Assembly (NCBI RefSeq): GCF_016887565.1
Contig: NZ_CP069396.1
Coordinates: forward strand, 9,592,001-9,656,000
Length of the DNA stretch: 64,000 nucleotides
Reading direction: 5' to 3'
DNA from: Archangium violaceum
GTDB lineage: Bacteria > Myxococcota > Myxococcia > Myxococcales > Myxococcaceae
Shown here: positions 29,904-37,133 of the stretch, piece after piece
Layout of the letters: each line of letters opens with the position of its first letter
Numbering within the stretch: the first letter of the stretch is position 1
The notes under the pieces: model-generated
Told to the model about the DNA's origin: nothing
Databases searched by the model: none
The model's input: only the letters and a program-made list of their open reading frames with translations
Made by a program: the position numbers and the translations under genes

Positions 29904-31589
29904 ATGATCGAATCCCTGGAGCTCCAGTTCGGAAACAGCCCCGATTCCGAACCCCTTCGGTTCGAACCCGGGCCAGTGACTGTCTTCATCGGACCGAACA
30001 ACTCGGGCAAAAGCCTGCTGCTCCGCGAGCTCACTCAGTTTCTGGGCGTCCTTCCGAGGTTCCAGTCCCGACAAGCCCCCAAGGTACTCAAGAACCTGTC
30101 CATCAAGAGCCCAGGCTCCGCCCAGGCACTCAGAACGGCTTTGATGGCACTGGGCGGCTACGAGGAGCAAGGTCATATCATCCTGCCCTTTCGCCTCGAA
30201 CACGATCACCAGCTGCGTTCGAGTGTCGGCAAGGATCCGCGGGTCATCGGTCCACAACTCCTCGACGAGAAGCATGCCGATCCCAGCTTCCTCCTGGACG
30301 TACTCGGCTCCACATCCTTCGTCGCGCTCGATGGCGTGAAGCGTCTGTCGCTCGTGGAGCCCCAACGCACCGAGGATCTCTCACAACCACCACAGAGCGC
30401 GGTCCAGGCCCTCTTCGTCGACGACACTTCTCGCGAGCGGTTACGCAAGCTGACGCACGAGGCATTCGGCCTCCATGCCGTGATCGACCCGACGGCGATG
30501 CGGCATTTCCATATTCGCCTCTCGAAGAGAGCCCCCTCGGATGCGGATGAGGAGACAGCCCTGGGCGTCCGCGCCAGGGAGTTCTACCGGGACGCCATCG
30601 ACATCCAGGACATGAGCGATGGAGTCAAAGCGTATACCGGGCTCCTGGTGGCGTTATTGAGCCGTCAGTATCGCATCATCACCATTGACGAGCCGGAGGC
30701 ATTCCTCCACCCGGCCCTCTCCAGGCGTTTGGGGGTCGAGCTCTCGCGCCTGGCCGCGGAACGGCAAGCCAATGTCTTCGTTTCCACGCACAGCGCGGAC
30801 TTCCTGATGGGCTGCATCGAGTCCGGACATCCTGTTCAGATCGTACGGCTGACCTACCAGGGTGGACTCGCGACGGCCATGCACCTCCCGAGCAGTACGC
30901 TCTCGAGTTTGATGAGGAATCCGCTCCTCAGGACCACCCATGTGCTCTCCGCGCTGTTTCACGTGGGAGCAGTCGTGACCGAGTCCGAAGCGGACCGGGC
31001 CTTCTACGACGAGATCAATCACCGCCTGTGGAGCACGGATGGTTCAGGCATCTCCGGCGCGAGCTTCCTCTTCGCGCAGAACAAGCAGACGGCCCACATG
31101 ATCGTCCGCCCTCTTCGACAGCTCGGCATTCCCGCTGTGGCGATCGTCGACATGGACTTCATCAAGGACGGGGGAAGGAACTTCACCCAACTCCTCGAAG
31201 CAGCAGGCGTCCCCACCGATTGGCATCAGCCACTGGGAAGCGCACGCGTCAAGATCAAGAACGCCTTGGACGCGGCCAATCCCTCCTGGAAGACTCAAGG
31301 TGGCCTCTCCGTCCTGAGTGGCGCCGAGGCGCGGACGTGCCGGGACTTCCTGGAGCATCTGGCGGAATATGGCCTCTTCATCGTCCCGGGTGGTGAGCTC
31401 GAAAGCTGGCTCCCCCAACTGGGTGCCAATCGGTCGAAGCATTCATGGCTCTATGAGATCTTCGAAGAGATGGGCTCGGATCCCACGCAACCCGCTTACG
31501 TCAAACCCTCGGAGGGAGATGTCTGGACCTTCATGCGCGGGATCGCCAGCTGGCTCCAGAATCCCCATCGAAAAGGAATGTCCTCCTGA
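29904..31589 (+). CDS. AAA ATPase with C-terminal TOPRIM-like domain (OLD-family-like nuclease)
   Basis: 561 residues. ABC/SMC-type ATPase in the N-terminal ~330 residues: Walker A GPNNSGKS at 30-37, Walker B IITIDEPEAFLHP, and the switch region NVFVSTHSADFL. The C-terminal part starts with TESEADRAFYDEI (E360) and contains VDMDF (D416, D418), the acidic triad arrangement of a TOPRIM metal site. This architecture is that of OLD-family exonucleases and related AAA_21 proteins, some of which act in phage defence (Gabija GajA, retron and PARIS partners). No UvrD-like helicase (GajB) or other partner is adjacent, so it is a solitary OLD-like gene. Lies between remnants, consistent with acquisition. 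Confidence 0.85.
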   Translation: MIESLELQFGNSPDSEPLRFEPGPVTVFIGPNNSGKSLLLRELTQFLGVLPRFQSRQAPKVLKNLSIKSPGSAQALRTALMALGGYEEQGHIILPFRLEHDHQLRSSVGKDPRVIGPQLLDEKHADPSFLLDVLGSTSFVALDGVKRLSLVEPQRTEDLSQPPQSAVQALFVDDTSRERLRKLTHEAFGLHAVIDPTAMRHFHIRLSKRAPSDADEETALGVRAREFYRDAIDIQDMSDGVKAYTGLLVALLSRQYRIITIDEPEAFLHPALSRRLGVELSRLAAERQANVFVSTHSADFLMGCIESGHPVQIVRLTYQGGLATAMHLPSSTLSSLMRNPLLRTTHVLSALFHVGAVVTESEADRAFYDEINHRLWSTDGSGISGASFLFAQNKQTAHMIVRPLRQLGIPAVAIVDMDFIKDGGRNFTQLLEAAGVPTDWHQPLGSARVKIKNALDAANPSWKTQGGLSVLSGAEARTCRDFLEHLAEYGLFIVPGGELESWLPQLGANRSKHSWLYEIFEEMGSDPTQPAYVKPSEGDVWTFMRGIASWLQNPHRKGMSS

Positions 31590-31645
31590 AGCAGGTGGAG
31601 GACGGGAGACGGATGAGCCATGGAAACGCGTGAGGTAGTGTGGAG

Positions 31646-31885
31646 ATGTCGACGGCCTCCACCCGGGCCGTCACCACCTATGGGACCCGGAGGGTCGAGG
31701 TGCTCGGCCCCACCTCCGCCCGCCTCGTCTTCCGGCGCGAGCTGATGGGTCCGCTGTGGATTCGCGGCATCTTCACGAAGAGCTTCCAGGCGCTCTCCGG
31801 GCTCGCCTCCGTGTCGGCCACGGTGGAGCGCTACCGCGAGCCTGGCGTGGACTTCGACCTCGTCTTCACCTGGCGGTTGCTCTGA
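31646..31885 (+). pseudogene. C-terminal fragment resembling DUF2378 (TIGR02265) protein
   Basis: About 79 codons reading TTYGTRRVEVLGPTSARLVF and on to DFDLVFTWRLL. The pattern of a short basic strand, LGP..ARLVF, a helix and a terminal W resembles the C-terminal third of DUF2378 proteins, a large myxobacterial paralogous family of about 180-200 residues. The N-terminal two-thirds are missing, so this is a truncated gene, although an independent short ORF from ATG 31646 cannot be excluded. Confidence 0.45.
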
Positions 31886-32140
31886 CTCGACGACACGCCC
31901 GATTCAGGCTTCGCGGGTCGCGCACATGCGCATACCTGTCCACGCGAGAGTCCATGGTCGGGCGCGCAGATGCGCGATGAAGCGCCAGTTCCGCTTTCAG
32001 CTGATCGCCGACTTGCCGTTCGGAATCGATGACAAGCGTCCTGCTTCCCGTGGGGTCCGGGTTGGAGCTCAGTCGGTTCGAGCCGAACTGACATCCCCGT
32101 CCCGGACGTGTCGGAGGTGCGTGCGACAGTCCGGGGCACC

Positions 32141-32998
32141 ATGAATGAAAGGGATGCTGCCTATACGGAGGGCCCCACTGTCATGGGGCTCTACGTCTTC
32201 TGTTTCGCGCGAGCGGACGCCGCCGGGTCGACATCGGGCCGGGGACTCGCGGAAGACTCGCCGCTCCTCGCGCGAGTGCACGAGGACATCGCGGCCATCT
32301 GCTGTGAGGTGCCGCTCCACGAATGGACGGGCGAGGCGGGCGAGGACCACCTGAAGGACTTGGGCTGGCTCGGGCCTCGCGCCATGCGTCACGAGGAGGT
32401 CATCGAGCAGACGATGCGCGCCTCGCCGGTGCTGCCGTTGCGCTTCGGCTGCCTGTTCTCATCGGCGGAGCGGCTCGAGGAGCTGCTGCGGCGGGAACGG
32501 ACACGAATCAAGGCCTTCATCGAGAAGGCGGAGCACGAGGAGGAGTGGTCGCTCCAGGGCTCCGTGCATCTCCAGGCCTGCGAAGAAGTCCTGTTCACCG
32601 CCGATCCGCGCACGGCGAAGCTGCCGGCATCGCCCGGGGCACGCTATCTGCTGGAGCAGAAGCTGCGAAAAGACGCGGCCCGAGCGGCGCAGGTCTGGCT
32701 CCAGGAGGCCCAGACGACGATCGCGCAAGCGCTCGCGGGGCTGGTGCTCGCGCGGCGCGTCCTGCGGCCTCCTTCGCACGGCCCGCGGGAGCCCGCGTTG
32801 GAAGGGGCTTTTCATTGGGCACTCCTTGTCCCGCGCGGCGCGGAGGAGGAGCTCGTCAGGCGCCTCGGACCGCTGGCGGAGCAACTGTCCGCGCACGGCC
32901 TGCACCTGTCCGCGCGAGGGCCCTGGCCGGCCTACAACTTCGCGCCACGCCTCGGGGAGGAGCCGGGCGGCACGCCCGAGGAACAGACGCATGGCTGA
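32141..32998 (+). CDS. gvpF: GvpF/GvpL-family gas vesicle protein (first copy)
   Basis: 285 residues from ATG 32141; ATG 32180 (MGLYVFCFAR) is an equally plausible start with a GGAGGG 12 bases upstream and gives a start more like other GvpF proteins. Family features: N-terminal strand LYVFCF, ASPVLPLRFGCLFSS (the V-L-P-x-R-F-G core), a long helical region and the terminal GPWPAYNFAP. GvpF/L proteins are accessory factors that bind GvpA and help nucleate gas vesicles. Opens the gvp cluster; the next gene overlaps its end by 8 bp. Confidence 0.88.
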   Translation: MNERDAAYTEGPTVMGLYVFCFARADAAGSTSGRGLAEDSPLLARVHEDIAAICCEVPLHEWTGEAGEDHLKDLGWLGPRAMRHEEVIEQTMRASPVLPLRFGCLFSSAERLEELLRRERTRIKAFIEKAEHEEEWSLQGSVHLQACEEVLFTADPRTAKLPASPGARYLLEQKLRKDAARAAQVWLQEAQTTIAQALAGLVLARRVLRPPSHGPREPALEGAFHWALLVPRGAEEELVRRLGPLAEQLSAHGLHLSARGPWPAYNFAPRLGEEPGGTPEEQTHG

Positions 32999-33707
32999 GA
33001 GCGACGCGGGGCTGCTGCTCTATTGCATCACGGGCGCGTCCTCGACGTCGCCGGTCGAAGGGACTGGGGTGCGAGGCGGTGGGCTCCGGAACATCGTGCA
33101 CGGCGGGCTCGCGGCCGTGGTCTCGCCCCTCGAGGAGCGCGAGTGGGTCGCGACCCCCACCACGGCGGAGCTGCTCGAGTACGAACGCATCATCCATTCG
33201 TGGCACGCCATCGCCGATGTCCTGCCGATGCGCTTCGGGAGCGTGCTCCCGGACGAAGCGGCGGTGCGAGCGCACCTCGACGAGCACCGGGCCACCTATC
33301 CGCGCGCGCTCGAGCGTGTCTCCGGCTGCGTGGAGATGGGAGTACGGGCACTGCTCCCCACGCCTCCCCCGCCCTCCGCGCCAGTGGAGCCCGTCAAGCC
33401 GATGAGCCGCTCGGGCGCCAGTTACCTCGAGGCCCTGCGGCACCGCTATTCCGCCGAGAATCGGCTGAAAGACGACTGCGCGGCACTGGAACGGGCCGTA
33501 CTCACGAAGGTGGCGCCGCTGTGCAGGGAGCACCGTGCGGAGCTCTCGCGCCCGCGCCCGGGTGAGCCCGCGCTCTGCTCGCTGTACTTCCTCGTGCCGC
33601 GCGACCGGGTGCCCGCGTTTCGCGCCGCGTTGTCACCGGACTCCGGCGAGTTGCCCGCGAAGCTCGCGCTGAGCGGGCCATGGCCTCCCTTCAATTTCGT
33701 GGCATGA
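32991..33707 (+). CDS. gvpF: GvpF/GvpL-family gas vesicle protein (second copy)
   Basis: 238 residues. LLLYCITG at the N-terminus, DVLPMRFGSVLPDE in the middle, and the family ending SGPWPPFNFV. The start overlaps the previous gvpF by 8 bp, so the two are translationally coupled. A Pro-rich loop (PTPPPPSAP) separates the two subdomains. Probably interacts with GvpA during early assembly; whether it is functionally distinct from the other two GvpF/L proteins in the cluster cannot be judged by eye. Confidence 0.9.
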   Translation: MAESDAGLLLYCITGASSTSPVEGTGVRGGGLRNIVHGGLAAVVSPLEEREWVATPTTAELLEYERIIHSWHAIADVLPMRFGSVLPDEAAVRAHLDEHRATYPRALERVSGCVEMGVRALLPTPPPPSAPVEPVKPMSRSGASYLEALRHRYSAENRLKDDCAALERAVLTKVAPLCREHRAELSRPRPGEPALCSLYFLVPRDRVPAFRAALSPDSGELPAKLALSGPWPPFNFVA

Positions 33708-33716
33708 GGCCGGAGT

Positions 33717-33756
33717 ACATGTCGGACTGTTCTGTTCAATGACAAACATGTCGGAC
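33717..33756. promoter_or_regulatory. Direct repeat ACATGTCGGAC upstream of gvpA
   Basis: Two exact 11-bp copies at 33717-33727 and 33746-33756, 29 bp start to start (close to three helical turns), in the 159-bp gap between the second gvpF and gvpA. Each copy contains the small palindrome ACATGT. Position and phasing suggest a regulator binding site in the gvpA leader. No sigma-70 hexamers are clear. Confidence 0.4.
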
Positions 33757-33866
33757 ACTCCTGCTACTCGTGAAGGCAAGCATGGACGGGAAAGCCAGAC
33801 AGGCGCGCCGCGCTTGCGAAAGCTCCACCTGGACAGGCTCAACCGAGGTGACACGAGGAGGCAGCA

Positions 33867-34169
33867 ATGGCGAACATTCAGAAATCGACGGATTCGTCCA
33901 GCCTGGCGGAAGTGGTCAGCATCATCCTCGACAAGGGAATCGTCATCGATGTGTGGGCCACGGTGTCGCTGGTCGGCATCCAGCTGCTGGCGGTGGAAGC
34001 GCGTGTCGTCATCGCCTCGGTCGAGACGTACCTGAAGTACGCGGCGGCGATCGGTCTGACCGGCGGCAGCCAGGCGGCCCAGTCGCTCAAGAACGCGGCC
34101 CTGCCGGTGGCGACGGGCGTGGCCATGCCGGCCATGCCGGGCGCGGCGATTCCCGCGCCCGCCCTGTAA
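33867..34169 (+). CDS. gvpA: Gas vesicle major structural protein GvpA
   Basis: 100 residues. The hydrophobic rib-forming core is clear: [20 protein letters not shown], then [20 protein letters not shown] and [12 protein letters not shown], matching the alpha-beta-beta-alpha plan of GvpA, which polymerises into the gas-filled shell. The tail after residue 68 is an Ala/Pro/Met-rich extension ([14 protein letters not shown]), longer than in classical 70-residue GvpA. GAGGAGG ribosome site just upstream. The strongest-looking leader in the cluster precedes it, consistent with a highly expressed shell protein. Confidence 0.95.
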
Positions 34170-34208
34170 CCAGACGAGCCTGAGCACGACACACGAGGAG
34201 CCAGGGAC

Positions 34209-34976
34209 ATGACGAACGTTCAGGCAGGGGGCACGTATCTCTATGCCGTTCTCGCCGGCCCGGAGGGACTCGGCCAGGCTGGGGCGATCGGCATCGAGGG
34301 CGGCGAGGTCTACTGCGTCACCGTGGGGGACATCGCCGCGGCGGTGAGCCGGGTGAGCCGTGCACGCCTCCGGCCTGAGCGCAAGCACCTCCTCACGCAT
34401 CAGGCCGTCCTGCGGCACTTGATGGAGCGAGGCACCGTGCTGCCGGCCGCGTTCGGACTCGTCGCCCGGAACGACGAGGACGTGCGCGGCCGGCTGCTCG
34501 AGAACCATGCGGTGTTCAAGGAGCAGCTCGAGCACGTCGCGGGCAAGGTGGAGATGGGGCTCAAGGTGAGCTGGAGCGCTCCGGACCTCTTCGGCTACTT
34601 CGTCGAGACCCACCCGGAGCTCGGCGCCATCCGCGACCGGATGAAGGGCCGTCACGACCTCCACCGCGAGGAGCTGCTCGCCGTGGGGAAGCTGTTCGAG
34701 GACATCCGCGAGACGGATCGGCAGGCACACTCCGAGCGCGTGATGGCGGTGCTCGGGGAGCACGGCATCGAGCTGAAGTGGAACCCGCCCCGAGGAGATC
34801 GCGAGGTGATGAATCTCTCGTGTCTCGTGCCGCGCGAGGGATTGGGTGCCTTCGAGAAGGTGATCGAAACCGCCGCGGTGGGCTTCGATGACCATTTCAC
34901 GTTCGAGTTCCACGGACCGTGGGCTCCCCACAGCTTCACGGAGCTGAAGCCCACGCATGGCTCCACGGGGGAGTGA
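34209..34976 (+). CDS. gvpF: GvpF/GvpL-family gas vesicle protein (third copy)
   Basis: 255 residues, the closest of the three to the classical GvpF/L form: GTYLYAVLAGPEG at the start, RGTVLPAAFGLVARNDEDVR in the core, KVEMGLKVSW, and the ending EFHGPWAPHSF. Ribosome site AGGAGCC upstream. Placed directly between gvpA and gvpG, the usual position of the gvpF that belongs with gvpA. The gap to gvpG is 2 bp. Confidence 0.94.
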   Translation: MTNVQAGGTYLYAVLAGPEGLGQAGAIGIEGGEVYCVTVGDIAAAVSRVSRARLRPERKHLLTHQAVLRHLMERGTVLPAAFGLVARNDEDVRGRLLENHAVFKEQLEHVAGKVEMGLKVSWSAPDLFGYFVETHPELGAIRDRMKGRHDLHREELLAVGKLFEDIRETDRQAHSERVMAVLGEHGIELKWNPPRGDREVMNLSCLVPREGLGAFEKVIETAAVGFDDHFTFEFHGPWAPHSFTELKPTHGSTGE

Positions 34977-34978
34977 CG

Positions 34979-35221
34979 ATGCTGCTCATCGACGACATCC
35001 TGCTCGCGCCGCTCCATGGCCTGCTCTGGGTCGCCAGGAAGGTCGACGACGCCCTGGGTCAGGAGCAGGAGAAGGAAAAAGTGGAGCTCGAGACGCGGCT
35101 GCGGGAGCTGTATCTGCGGCTCGAATCCGGACAGCTCGGGGAGCAGGAGTTCGAGGCCCAGGAAGCGGAGCTGCTGGATCGGCTCGACGCCATCCTCGCG
35201 CCCGACGAGGAGGAGCGGTGA
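34979..35221 (+). CDS. gvpG: Gas vesicle protein GvpG
   Basis: 80 residues: hydrophobic N-terminus LLIDDILLAPLHGLLWVARK followed by a strongly charged helix (QEQEKEKVELETRLRELYLR), the hallmark of GvpG. An accessory protein thought to act with GvpF/L at the nucleation stage. ATG at 34979 lies 2 bp after the gvpF stop and the gene ends 2 bp before the next ATG. Confidence 0.9.
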   Translation: MLLIDDILLAPLHGLLWVARKVDDALGQEQEKEKVELETRLRELYLRLESGQLGEQEFEAQEAELLDRLDAILAPDEEER

Positions 35222-35223
35222 CG

Positions 35224-35442
35224 ATGGAACGGGAATCCGAGTCCATTTCGCTCTGTGAGGCGCTCGACCGGGTGCTCCACAAGGGCGTGGCGCTGCGAGG
35301 TGACATCGTGTTGTCGGTGGCGGATGTGGACCTCGTCTACCTCGGCCTGCAGCTCATCTTGTGCTCGACGGATACGGCGCGGCGGGTGGGGCTCGTTCCC
35401 CCCTCACCTCTCAAACCCCTCTTCGGTGGAGGAGGGAAATGA
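35224..35442 (+). CDS. gvpJ: GvpJ/GvpM-type minor gas vesicle protein
   Basis: 72 residues of the GvpA superfamily: SISLCEALDRVLHKGVALRG, then DIVLSVADVDLVYLGLQLIL. The DxVDLVYLxL variant and the Leu/Cys-rich second strand are those of GvpJ/M/S minor shell proteins rather than GvpA, which has the VEARVV strand. Such proteins are thought to shape the conical tips or start the shell. Ends with an ATGA overlap into gvpK. Confidence 0.88.
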   Translation: MERESESISLCEALDRVLHKGVALRGDIVLSVADVDLVYLGLQLILCSTDTARRVGLVPPSPLKPLFGGGGK

Positions 35443-35759
35443 CCGGCGAGGAAAGGGAGCTCGAGACGGCGCTGCGCGGGCAGCTCACCCGGCCCGCGCG
35501 GCGGCTCTCGCTCGACGAAGGCACGCTGAAGAACGGGCTCGGGCAGCTGGTGCTCACCCTGGTCAAGCTGCTGCACGAGCTGCTGGAGAAGCAGGCCATC
35601 CGCCGCATGGAGGGCAACACCCTGAGTGACGAGGAGATCGAGCGCCTCGGGACGGCGCTGATGCGTCAGGCGGAGGAGATCGAGCGGCTCCGGGTGGAGT
35701 TCGGGCTCACGGAGGAGGACCTGAACCTCGACCTGGGCCCGCTCGGCAAGCTGCTGTGA
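35439..35759 (+). CDS. gvpK: Gas vesicle protein GvpK
   Basis: 106 residues with the family core LKNGLGQLVLTLVKLLHELL followed by EKQAIRRMEGNTLSDEEIER and a leucine-rich C-terminal helix ending DLNLDLGPLGKLL. GvpK is one of the conserved accessory proteins required for vesicle formation in most species. Overlaps the upstream gvpJ by 4 bp and lies 9 bp before the last gvp gene. Confidence 0.93.
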   Translation: MTGEERELETALRGQLTRPARRLSLDEGTLKNGLGQLVLTLVKLLHELLEKQAIRRMEGNTLSDEEIERLGTALMRQAEEIERLRVEFGLTEEDLNLDLGPLGKLL

Positions 35760-35768
35760 GGAGGAGAC

Positions 35769-36083
35769 ATGTCGACTCAGCACATCGTCCAGAGCCCCCG
35801 GAGCGCGACGCTCGCGGACGTATTGGATCGCGTCCTCGACAAGGGACTGGTGGTCGCGGGTGATATCAAGATCAAGCTGCTGGACATCGAGCTGCTCACC
35901 ATCCAGGTGCGTCTGGTGGTGTGCTCGGTGGACAAGGCCGCCGCGATGGGGATGGATTTCTGGAGGAACGATCCGCATCTGTCGCCCCGGTTGGCCGCGA
36001 CGAGCGAGCCCGAGGGACTCGCTCGCCGGGTGGCGGAGCTGGAAGCGGTGGTGGCGAAGCTGGACGGGGGACGGGACCCGTAG
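35769..36083 (+). CDS. gvpJ: GvpJ-type gas vesicle protein (second copy)
   Basis: 104 residues. GvpA-superfamily core ATLADVLDRVLDKGLVVAGD followed by IKIKLLDIELLTIQVRLVVC, then a variable tail with a predicted helix (LARRVAELEAVVAKLDG). The DIELLTI...RLVV strand fits GvpJ. GGAGGAG ribosome site just upstream. Last gene of the gvp run; the next gene is on the opposite strand, ending 37 bp away. No gvpN, gvpO, gvpR or gvpT follows. Confidence 0.9.
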   Translation: MSTQHIVQSPRSATLADVLDRVLDKGLVVAGDIKIKLLDIELLTIQVRLVVCSVDKAAAMGMDFWRNDPHLSPRLAATSEPEGLARRVAELEAVVAKLDGGRDP

Positions 36084-36119
36084 CGCCCGTTGCCTTGCCG
36101 CCGGAGTTGCCTGGCTCGA

Positions 36120-37133
36120 CTACCGAGGGGTGCAGGTGGCGTCGGGCGTGGAGGCCACGACCGAGAGCAGGTGCTGGAGGTAGTCGTCGCGGAGGGGCAT
36201 GGTGCCCTCGGCGCCCGCGTTCTCGCCGATGATATAGGTTTCGGACTTGGGCAGGCCCACGGCCGCATAGGCGCCGATGTCCGTGGTCGCGTTCCCGTAC
36301 ACGCGGACGATGTCGAGCCCGACATCCTCGAGCAGGTAGGTGAGGTAGTCGGTCTTGTACTGCTCGGTGTCCGGGGGGATGGGACCCTCCCCGTAGGGGT
36401 TGGTGTGCACGTGCCCGTCGACAAGGCCCTGGTAGTCGATCCACTGGCGCGTGTCCTTGCCAACCCAGTAGGGGCGGCCCGTGAGATAGATGATCTGGTA
36501 GCCCTTGTCGGCGTAGCTGTTCACCACGTCGACCGCATGCGGATAGGCCTGGGCCGTGCTGCAGCCGAGGTAGTCGCCGACCATCTCGAAGTCATTGAGG
36601 GTCAAGGTGCCGTCGATGTCGAACAGGACGGTCTGGCGGCCCGGCTCGACCACGGAGACGAAGCCGGTGGCGGAGCTGAGATCGCCCTCGACGATCATCG
36701 TCACCCGGTACTCGCCCACCGGGCGGGTGATGGGGACGAAGATCTTGCCATCGGAATCCGTGCGGAACTCACCGACATACTGCCAGCCCGGCGAATTCGT
36801 TCCCATGATGTAGACGTGGACGTCCTCATCCTCGAGGTCCTTGTGCAGGACGCTGCTGTAGTCGAACTTGCCCACGACGATGGCCTGGGTCCCCACGGGC
36901 ACGATCTGATCATGCACCATGTGGTAGGGCGGATAGGACCAGGAGAGGATCTGGCTACCCGTGTGTCGGAAGCTCCGACGCGCCGGTCCCTGGAGCGTGG
37001 GTGGATTCGCGACCGAGCCATAATCCGGGCACGTCAGCTGCGCGAAGGCGGACGCGGGAACCGCACACAGAATCAAGACTGACAGCGCGACGAGTCGAGC
37101 AACGGTCCGTATCAAGGTGGCCTCCTTGGCCAA
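36120..37133 (-). CDS. Exported LNS2 (lipin-like) HAD phosphatase-domain protein
   Basis: 337 residues. Signal peptide ARLVALSVLILCAVPASAFA. The N-terminal ~110 residues form a beta-rich domain (YVGEFRTDSDGKIFVPI). The C-terminal ~165 residues are an LNS2 domain: nucleophile motif D172-I-D174-G-T-L-T, then YLTGRPYWVGKDTRQWI and the late Asp region YGNATTDIGAYAAVGL. LNS2 is the catalytic domain of lipin phosphatidate phosphatases and occurs in phosphatidylinositol transfer proteins; here it is exported, so any substrate would be in the envelope or outside. Faces the gvp cluster tail to tail. Unusual family for a bacterium but intact. Confidence 0.82.
   Translation of the reverse strand: MAKEATLIRTVARLVALSVLILCAVPASAFAQLTCPDYGSVANPPTLQGPARRSFRHTGSQILSWSYPPYHMVHDQIVPVGTQAIVVGKFDYSSVLHKDLEDEDVHVYIMGTNSPGWQYVGEFRTDSDGKIFVPITRPVGEYRVTMIVEGDLSSATGFVSVVEPGRQTVLFDIDGTLTLNDFEMVGDYLGCSTAQAYPHAVDVVNSYADKGYQIIYLTGRPYWVGKDTRQWIDYQGLVDGHVHTNPYGEGPIPPDTEQYKTDYLTYLLEDVGLDIVRVYGNATTDIGAYAAVGLPKSETYIIGENAGAEGTMPLRDDYLQHLLSVVASTPDATCTPR

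Follow-up and report, generated by a model that had tools for sequence, protein, structure and literature searches.

A compact gas vesicle operon without gvpN in Archangium violaceum, a possible minimal cassette for small vesicles

Eight gas vesicle genes fill the locus

The subject of this analysis is a gas vesicle (gvp) operon in the genome of Archangium violaceum, presumably a soil-living, gliding myxobacterium (RefSeq assembly GCF_016887565.1), located within a stretch of 64,000 nucleotides that we refer to as the window (contig NZ_CP069396.1, positions 9,592,001-9,656,000; coordinates below are those of the window unless another locus is named). Positions 32141-36083 of the forward strand are filled by eight intact genes in the order F1-F2-A-F3-G-J1-K-J2, each of which scores above its Pfam cut-off. 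The first two encode GvpF/L proteins: F1 (gvpF/L-1; 32141..32998, 285 aa) matches PF06386 (GvpL_GvpF) with 151 bits, while F2 (gvpF/L-2; 32991..33707, 238 aa), which overlaps F1 by 8 bp, does so with 155 bits. These are followed by gvpA, the sole shell protein gene (33867..34169, 100 aa; PF00741, 42 bits; PRK09371, 110.7 bits against a cut-off of 100), and by the gvpF gene F3 (34209..34976, 255 aa; PF06386, 200 bits), whose product matches two gas vesicle proteins of known structure, 6l5d and 4qsg. The remaining genes are gvpG (34979..35221, 80 aa; PF05120, 53 bits), the gvpJ/S-type minor GvpA homologue J1 (35224..35442, 72 aa; PF00741, 57 bits), gvpK (35439..35759, 106 aa; PF05121, 108 bits), and the gvpJ-type minor GvpA homologue J2 (35769..36083, 104 aa; PF00741, 59 bits). 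Among PDB entries, only 8gbs and 7r1c matched the window GvpA at E 0.001. Adjacent genes overlap by 4 or 8 bp or are separated by 2-39 bp, with the exception of a 159-bp gap 5' of gvpA. The translations of the eight open reading frames (ORFs) contain no internal stops, and the F1 protein is 92% and 71% identical to its counterparts in two congeners. Because 11 further family genomes have the identical gene order, the arrangement is not due to chance. An initial annotation of this DNA had described eight tightly packed gvp genes, and the Pfam scores, coordinates, and uninterrupted translations confirm at the sequence level that the window carries a real, compact gas vesicle operon.

By content, the operon fits the proteobacterial type with three GvpA-family and three GvpF genes, accompanied by gvpG and gvpK. 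In Serratia sp. ATCC 39006, gvpA1, F1, G, A2, K, A3, F2, and F3 are each required for vesicles, as are the regulators gvrA and gvrB (PMC4982088). The eight gene types of the window operon equal these eight required gvp types of Serratia, a match made by protein family and without comparison of Serratia sequences. The two clusters differ in that the Serratia cluster spans 19 genes and 16.6 kb, including gvpN, gvpV, gvpC, and gvrABC, whereas the window operon has the eight genes only and its GvpA is without five conserved charges. Three GvpF/L genes for one GvpA had initially been considered a rich set, which was an overstatement: three GvpF proteins are a conserved feature of the gvp clusters of gamma- and deltaproteobacteria, and each of the three is required in Serratia (PMC4982088). 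Judged by its gene content, the window operon is a minimal set rather than a rich one. No published account of gvp genes in myxobacteria was found among the papers listed by a literature survey that included Myxococcus, Corallococcus, and Anaeromyxobacter and was judged by titles and the openings of abstracts.

The complete genome is without gvpN and gvpO

The absence of gvpN and gvpO had previously been noted for the window, with a search of the whole genome proposed as a check. Profile searches of the entire genome (one contig, 13.2 Mb, completeness 100) bear out this claim and extend it to the complete genome. The best match to GvpN (TIGR02640) scored 34 bits, the cut-off being 266.8, and lies inside a long AAA frame, which rules out a hidden gvpN elsewhere in the genome, and the best match to GvpO had an E-value of 0.8. 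Likewise, no second GvpA-family gene was found in the complete genome, as the three PF00741 matches are all inside the cluster, and no CDC48-family ATPase was found there at E 1e-100, which rules out CDC48 as a substitute for GvpN in this genome. The operon has neither a gvpC gene nor room for one, the search for gvpC having covered the operon only. Since the genome has no gvpO, the actinobacterial gvpO-A-F-G-J-L-S-K type was rejected for the window operon.

GvpN and GvpC have been described as conserved in all gvp clusters, and the same review tabulates Streptomyces coelicolor without GvpN (PMC9501494). Thus, a missing GvpN does not exclude membership among gas vesicle clusters, and the lack of gvpN seen in the initial annotation stands but is not unique to this operon. 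The S. coelicolor cluster (gvpOAFG-JLSK) resembles the window operon in that it is small, devoid of gvpN, and from a soil bacterium, but it contains gvpO and has a different gene order (PMC9501494). Actinobacterial and soil acidobacterial clusters are also placed far from the window operon in the tree described below. Regarding the consequences of GvpN loss, gvpN or gvpV mutants of Serratia 39006 form small bicones and fail to float (PMC4982088), Haloferax without gvpN makes tiny vesicles only (PMC9501494), and elongation in Bacillus megaterium needs GvpN, with no vesicles seen in a stop mutant by first microscopy (PMC11223475).

gvpN was probably lost twice within the family

Within the family, GvpK was detected in 15 of 96 genomes and GvpN in 1 of 96. 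Across the phylum, GvpK was present in 29 of 195 genomes and GvpN in 5 of these 29, the other 24 having no match at E 1e-12 and including some incomplete genomes. The eight-gene order without gvpN is found in 12 of the 15 GvpK-bearing family genomes, the window included. The remaining three comprise a relic (G042), a different cluster with gvpN (G039), and a cluster cut by a contig end (G044, which has two GvpA-family matches on another contig). The relic (L034; G042:C28, 9496-11594) retains F1, F2, a GvpK without approximately its first 29 residues, and J2; gvpA, F3, G, and J1 have been deleted, with no GvpA elsewhere in the G042 genome. Our statements on clusters outside the phylum rest on the named loci, which are the best 80 of a longer scan. 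Among these, all 13 clusters in view from outside the family with the order F-F-A-(N)-F-G-J-K-J carry gvpN between A and F. Such clusters, from Acidobacteriota, Thiodictyon, Desulfomonile, and others (L040, L044, L055, L072, among others), share the order of the eight genes with the window operon but differ from it in the presence of gvpN, and we therefore consider it probable that gvpN was lost within the family.

A wide tree was constructed from 91 of 109 cluster loci, excluding 18 with fewer than five of six genes, and a more careful tree was built from eight joined proteins of 37 of those 91 rows, which we chose ourselves and which include six of the nine rows from the genera g5 and g19. 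The operons of the window and of two congeners (G004 and G002), hereafter the window clade, join the gvpN-bearing Polyangia cluster L063 with support of 99/98, apart from a clade of nine g5/g19 genomes (L025-L033) whose clusters have the same eight genes in the same order and are also without gvpN. The two N-less clades were united in 0 of 200 bootstrap trees, and one common N-less ancestor for both was rejected by an approximately unbiased (AU) test (p = 0.0008; lnL lower by 57.7), although the outcome of the quick tree was already known when this test was run, and the g5/g19 branch is long. Because both the tree and the AU test separate the window clade from the g5/g19 clade, gvpN was probably lost twice in the family, once in each.

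The two clades also differ in what they retained. Directly upstream of F1, the g5/g19 clusters L025-L033 have two further genes, one GvpH/Hsp20-like (PF05455, 31.8 bits) and the other encoding a CDC48/p97-type AAA ATPase (TIGR01243, 917 bits), as in L031 (13446-16102, reverse strand). CDC48 was found in 11 of the 25 genomes searched, namely the nine g5/g19 gvp carriers, G039, and G141. It was found in none of seven gvp-negative genomes (G003, G005, G006, G027, G033, G060, and G062), nor in G000, G002, G004, G042, G044, G116, or G118. Elsewhere, CDC48 commonly adjoins the gvp genes, as it does in 27 of the 59 N-bearing loci in view. From this distribution across the 25 genomes, it appears that the g5/g19 clusters kept another ATPase, together with GvpH, whereas the window clade kept neither; a CDC48 substitute for GvpN would fit the g5/g19 clusters only. 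A separate N-less arrangement, J-A-F-G-F-J-F-K, occurs within the same taxonomic order in L139, L141, L143, L147, and L148 (families f2, f4, and f6) and is partial at contig ends in L137, L138, L140, and L142; it groups with soil Acidobacteriota clusters.

The shell protein GvpA is altered at conserved charged positions

GvpA was compared across 75 rows, with the protein in view for 49 of the 59 N-bearing loci. It is the most conserved of the gvp products, having 54 near-invariant columns among N-bearing rows versus 6-25 in the other genes. The window clade changes 8 of these 54 columns, while the corresponding numbers for its other genes are 0/21 for F3, 0/20 for K, 0/6 for G, 1/8 for J1, 3/25 for J2, 0/12 for F1, and 0/10 for F2. 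The g5/g19 clade has 7 of the 54 GvpA columns changed, plus one each in F3 and K, and a single changed GvpA column is common to both clades: Glu56, which is Asp in g5/g19 with its charge kept. Five of the window GvpA changes, all in the ordered core and fixed in the three species of the clade, each remove a charge (D18S, R19I, K/R32T, E/D39Q, and E60A in window numbering). By alignment, these are Asp14 to Ser, Arg15 to Ile, Lys/Arg28 to Thr, Glu/Asp35 to Gln, and Glu56 to Ala in Halobacterium numbering. N-bearing rows retain residues 14, 15, 28, 35, and 56 in 48/48, 48/48, 49/49, 49/49, and 49/49 cases, respectively, and the g5/g19 clusters, unlike the window clade, retain a charge at all five positions. 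Arg15 is missing from three of the 15 other N-less rows and Glu56 is Gln in one of them, while the other three positions are charged in 15/15; thus, Arg15 is the least distinctive of the changes and positions 28 and 35 are the most distinctive. The 55-residue core as a whole contains 8 charged residues in the three window-clade proteins versus 13 in 68 of the 75 rows, with the remaining four rows having 11, 12, 14, and 14.

In the B. megaterium structure, salt bridges linking Glu43, Arg31, and Glu38 reinforce the rib, and a docking model for the Anabaena proteins places Glu52 and Glu59 of GvpA in contact with GvpC (PMC9994262). In the window, L035, and L036, Glu43 is kept, whereas Arg31 is replaced by Thr and Glu38 by Gln (B. 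megaterium numbering); of the modelled GvpC contacts, Glu59 is changed in the window GvpA and the acid at 52 is kept. As aligned, GvpA has lost two of the three rib salt-bridge residues and one modelled GvpC contact. In haloarchaea, mini gas vesicles result from R28A, a mutation of the residue equivalent to Arg31, while R15A weakens the contact with GvpF, and most such contact-weakening changes are vesicle-negative (PMC7688916).

One way to interpret this shell protein is that it encloses no gas and instead assembles into a different polymer, for example an amyloid-like rib. Its charge-poor core and long Ala/Pro-rich C-terminal tail would fit this, as would an operon without a gvpC gene. However, the hydrophobic pattern is kept, a helix-strand-strand-helix order is predicted, albeit with low confidence (AlphaFold mean pLDDT 52.6, pTM 0.20; only the order of the elements was used), and the operon retains every gvp type required for Serratia vesicles. 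We consider such a polymer highly improbable. Alternatively, the changed GvpA might make GvpN unnecessary, such that ordinary full-size vesicles would give cells buoyancy in waterlogged soil, pools, or rain films. Consistent with this, N-less clusters persist widely in the phylum (the 24 of 29 GvpK-bearing genomes mentioned above, incomplete ones included), all eight genes are constrained, and the change could be compensatory, since GvpF contacts GvpA via residues that are changed here (PMC7688916). Nevertheless, F1, F2, and F3 are unchanged at their near-invariant columns, so no compensation is visible there, and the loss of GvpN leaves small or no vesicles in all three of the organisms cited above. 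Full-size vesicles therefore strike us as unlikely, though worth serious consideration.

All eight genes are constrained

Ratios of nonsynonymous to synonymous substitution rates (dN/dS) were calculated by the Nei-Gojobori method with our own script for the window versus G004 and versus G002; rows for A, F3, and J1 versus L034 were ignored as paralogue mis-hits, as those genes are deleted in L034. The eight genes ranged from 0.09 to 0.48 versus G004 and from 0.20 to 0.52 versus G002, with values of 0.09 and 0.20 for J2, 0.25 and 0.36 for F1, and 0.46 and 0.52 for F2, which is together with G the least constrained. These ratios indicate that all eight genes are under purifying selection, which makes a silent operon less likely. 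Three species share a conserved non-coding block within the 159-bp gap before gvpA, and this block contains a -35/-10-like pair with a 17-bp spacer. In the window, this promoter-like element (33739..33767, forward strand) reads ATGACA - 17 bp - TGCTAC, and its counterparts are TGTTAC in G004 and TTGACA and TGTTAA in G002. A strict consensus promoter scan gave no match, the element falling below it. We suggest that gvpA and the downstream genes are probably read from this element. An ATGTCGGAS-like motif that recurs before F1 and gvpA was also considered and rejected as not significant, since its 5 window matches were reached in 32 of 100 shuffles.

These results bear upon whether the operon is cryptic or decaying and heading to loss, as proposed for S. 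coelicolor. The patchy presence of the operon (3 of 6 congeners), the gvpA-less relic in G042, and the five charges lost from GvpA would all be compatible with decay, but none of the eight genes exceeds a dN/dS of 0.52 in either comparison, the five GvpA changes are identical and fixed across three species with most of the GvpA core kept, and the element before gvpA is conserved. Decay is accordingly a distinctly improbable account in our estimation.

The operon behaves as a travelling unit of approximately 4 kb

The DNA common to the window and G004 extends from 32096 to 36088 (forward strand, 91% identical), and the corresponding extent versus G002 is 32109-36065 (forward strand, 77% identical). 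In the three congeners, the operon is located at three different sites with no other DNA in common within the 6-10 kb compared on each side; relaxed settings gave short flank matches only (best E 0.003), and 0 of 96 flank ORFs matched at E 1e-6. By these comparisons, the operon is a precise travelling unit of approximately 4 kb. On either side of the G004 unit lies DNA that is arranged collinearly in G002, G003, and G005, but with 1.2-2.1 kb of other sequence in place of the unit. The situation in G006 is similar, with about 4 kb of other DNA, and the window's genome matches this place on one side only. The flanking pieces of G004 and G002 share 84-93% identity, compared with only 77% for the unit, which suggests separate arrival or faster change of the unit; for G004 versus the window's genome, identity is 94% on the one matching side and 91% in the unit. 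No convincing terminal repeat was seen at the unit ends. An 8-bp pair, CCCGTCCC/GGGACGGG, is present at the block ends of the window and G004 but not of G002, and was not counted as the terminal repeats of a mobile element. At the window's own site, the upstream neighbour is weakly matched in congeners and the downstream gene occurs there in other contexts; an empty site was not demonstrated. As a separate observation, L035 9617-13649 and the collinear places in L179, L180, and L182 constitute one site with different inserts in each congener, a possible insertion hotspot less than 1 kb from a translation-factor gene, which we take to be that of release factor 3.

A possible cassette for small vesicles

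We give an even chance to the reading that the operon is a functional, minimal, GvpN-less cassette making small spindle vesicles that do not serve for floating, the size and role of which we infer by analogy with other organisms. F1-F3, GvpG, GvpK, and the two GvpJ-type proteins would nucleate the shell and feed GvpA into its ribs, as in Serratia and Haloferax; nucleation is probable because the assembly factors are almost unchanged at conserved positions. With GvpN missing and two of the three salt-bridge residues gone, assembly would stop at small spindle-shaped (bicone) vesicles, small size being suggested by two separate features, the missing GvpN and the change at position 28. Such spindles would hold too little gas for cell flotation and another use would therefore be likely, for which gas or pressure sensing, light scattering, or packing in resting cells are our guesses.

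Several points weigh against a small-vesicle cassette. Streptomyces-type clusters are also without gvpN, and N-less clusters need not behave like the Serratia mutant; moreover, the operon matches the Serratia type by family only, and Serratia additionally needs gvrA and gvrB (PMC4982088). In haloarchaea, vesicles are abolished by most of the GvpA changes that weaken contact with GvpF (PMC7688916), and by analogy the altered GvpA may form none. The loss of Arg15 is not unique to this GvpA, being shared with 3 of the 15 other N-less rows. In addition, loss of function does happen near the window clade, as G042 is missing gvpA, F3, G, and J1.

A bolder proposal, which is possible but on balance doubtful, is that of a non-floating organelle, in which a horizontally moving eight-gene cassette without GvpN or CDC48, and with a shell devoid of the salt bridges and of the GvpC-contact charge, would produce permanently small vesicles in gliding or resting cells. 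If true, the parallel loss of gvpN in the second family clade would imply that small vesicles are a selected end state. With eight genes, approximately 4 kb, and no GvpN, the operon would be a natural candidate for the minimal set sought by gas vesicle tool engineers, and it would make testable both the dispensability of GvpN and the need of the GvpA salt-bridge network for any shell. It also raises the role of gas vesicles in bacteria that are not expected in open water.

Neighbouring genes

Upstream of the cassette, 29904-31589 encodes a 561-residue AAA_21-type ATPase with weak matches (E 2.8e-7 or worse) in five congeners, and just upstream of the cassette, 81 residues encoded at 31640-31885 match the last part of DUF2378 only and look truncated. 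Downstream, 36120-37133 on the reverse strand encodes a protein with PITM beta-sandwich and LNS2 domains, which are typical of eukaryotic lipid-transfer proteins; this gene forms a single-gene block found in other contexts in G006 and G004.

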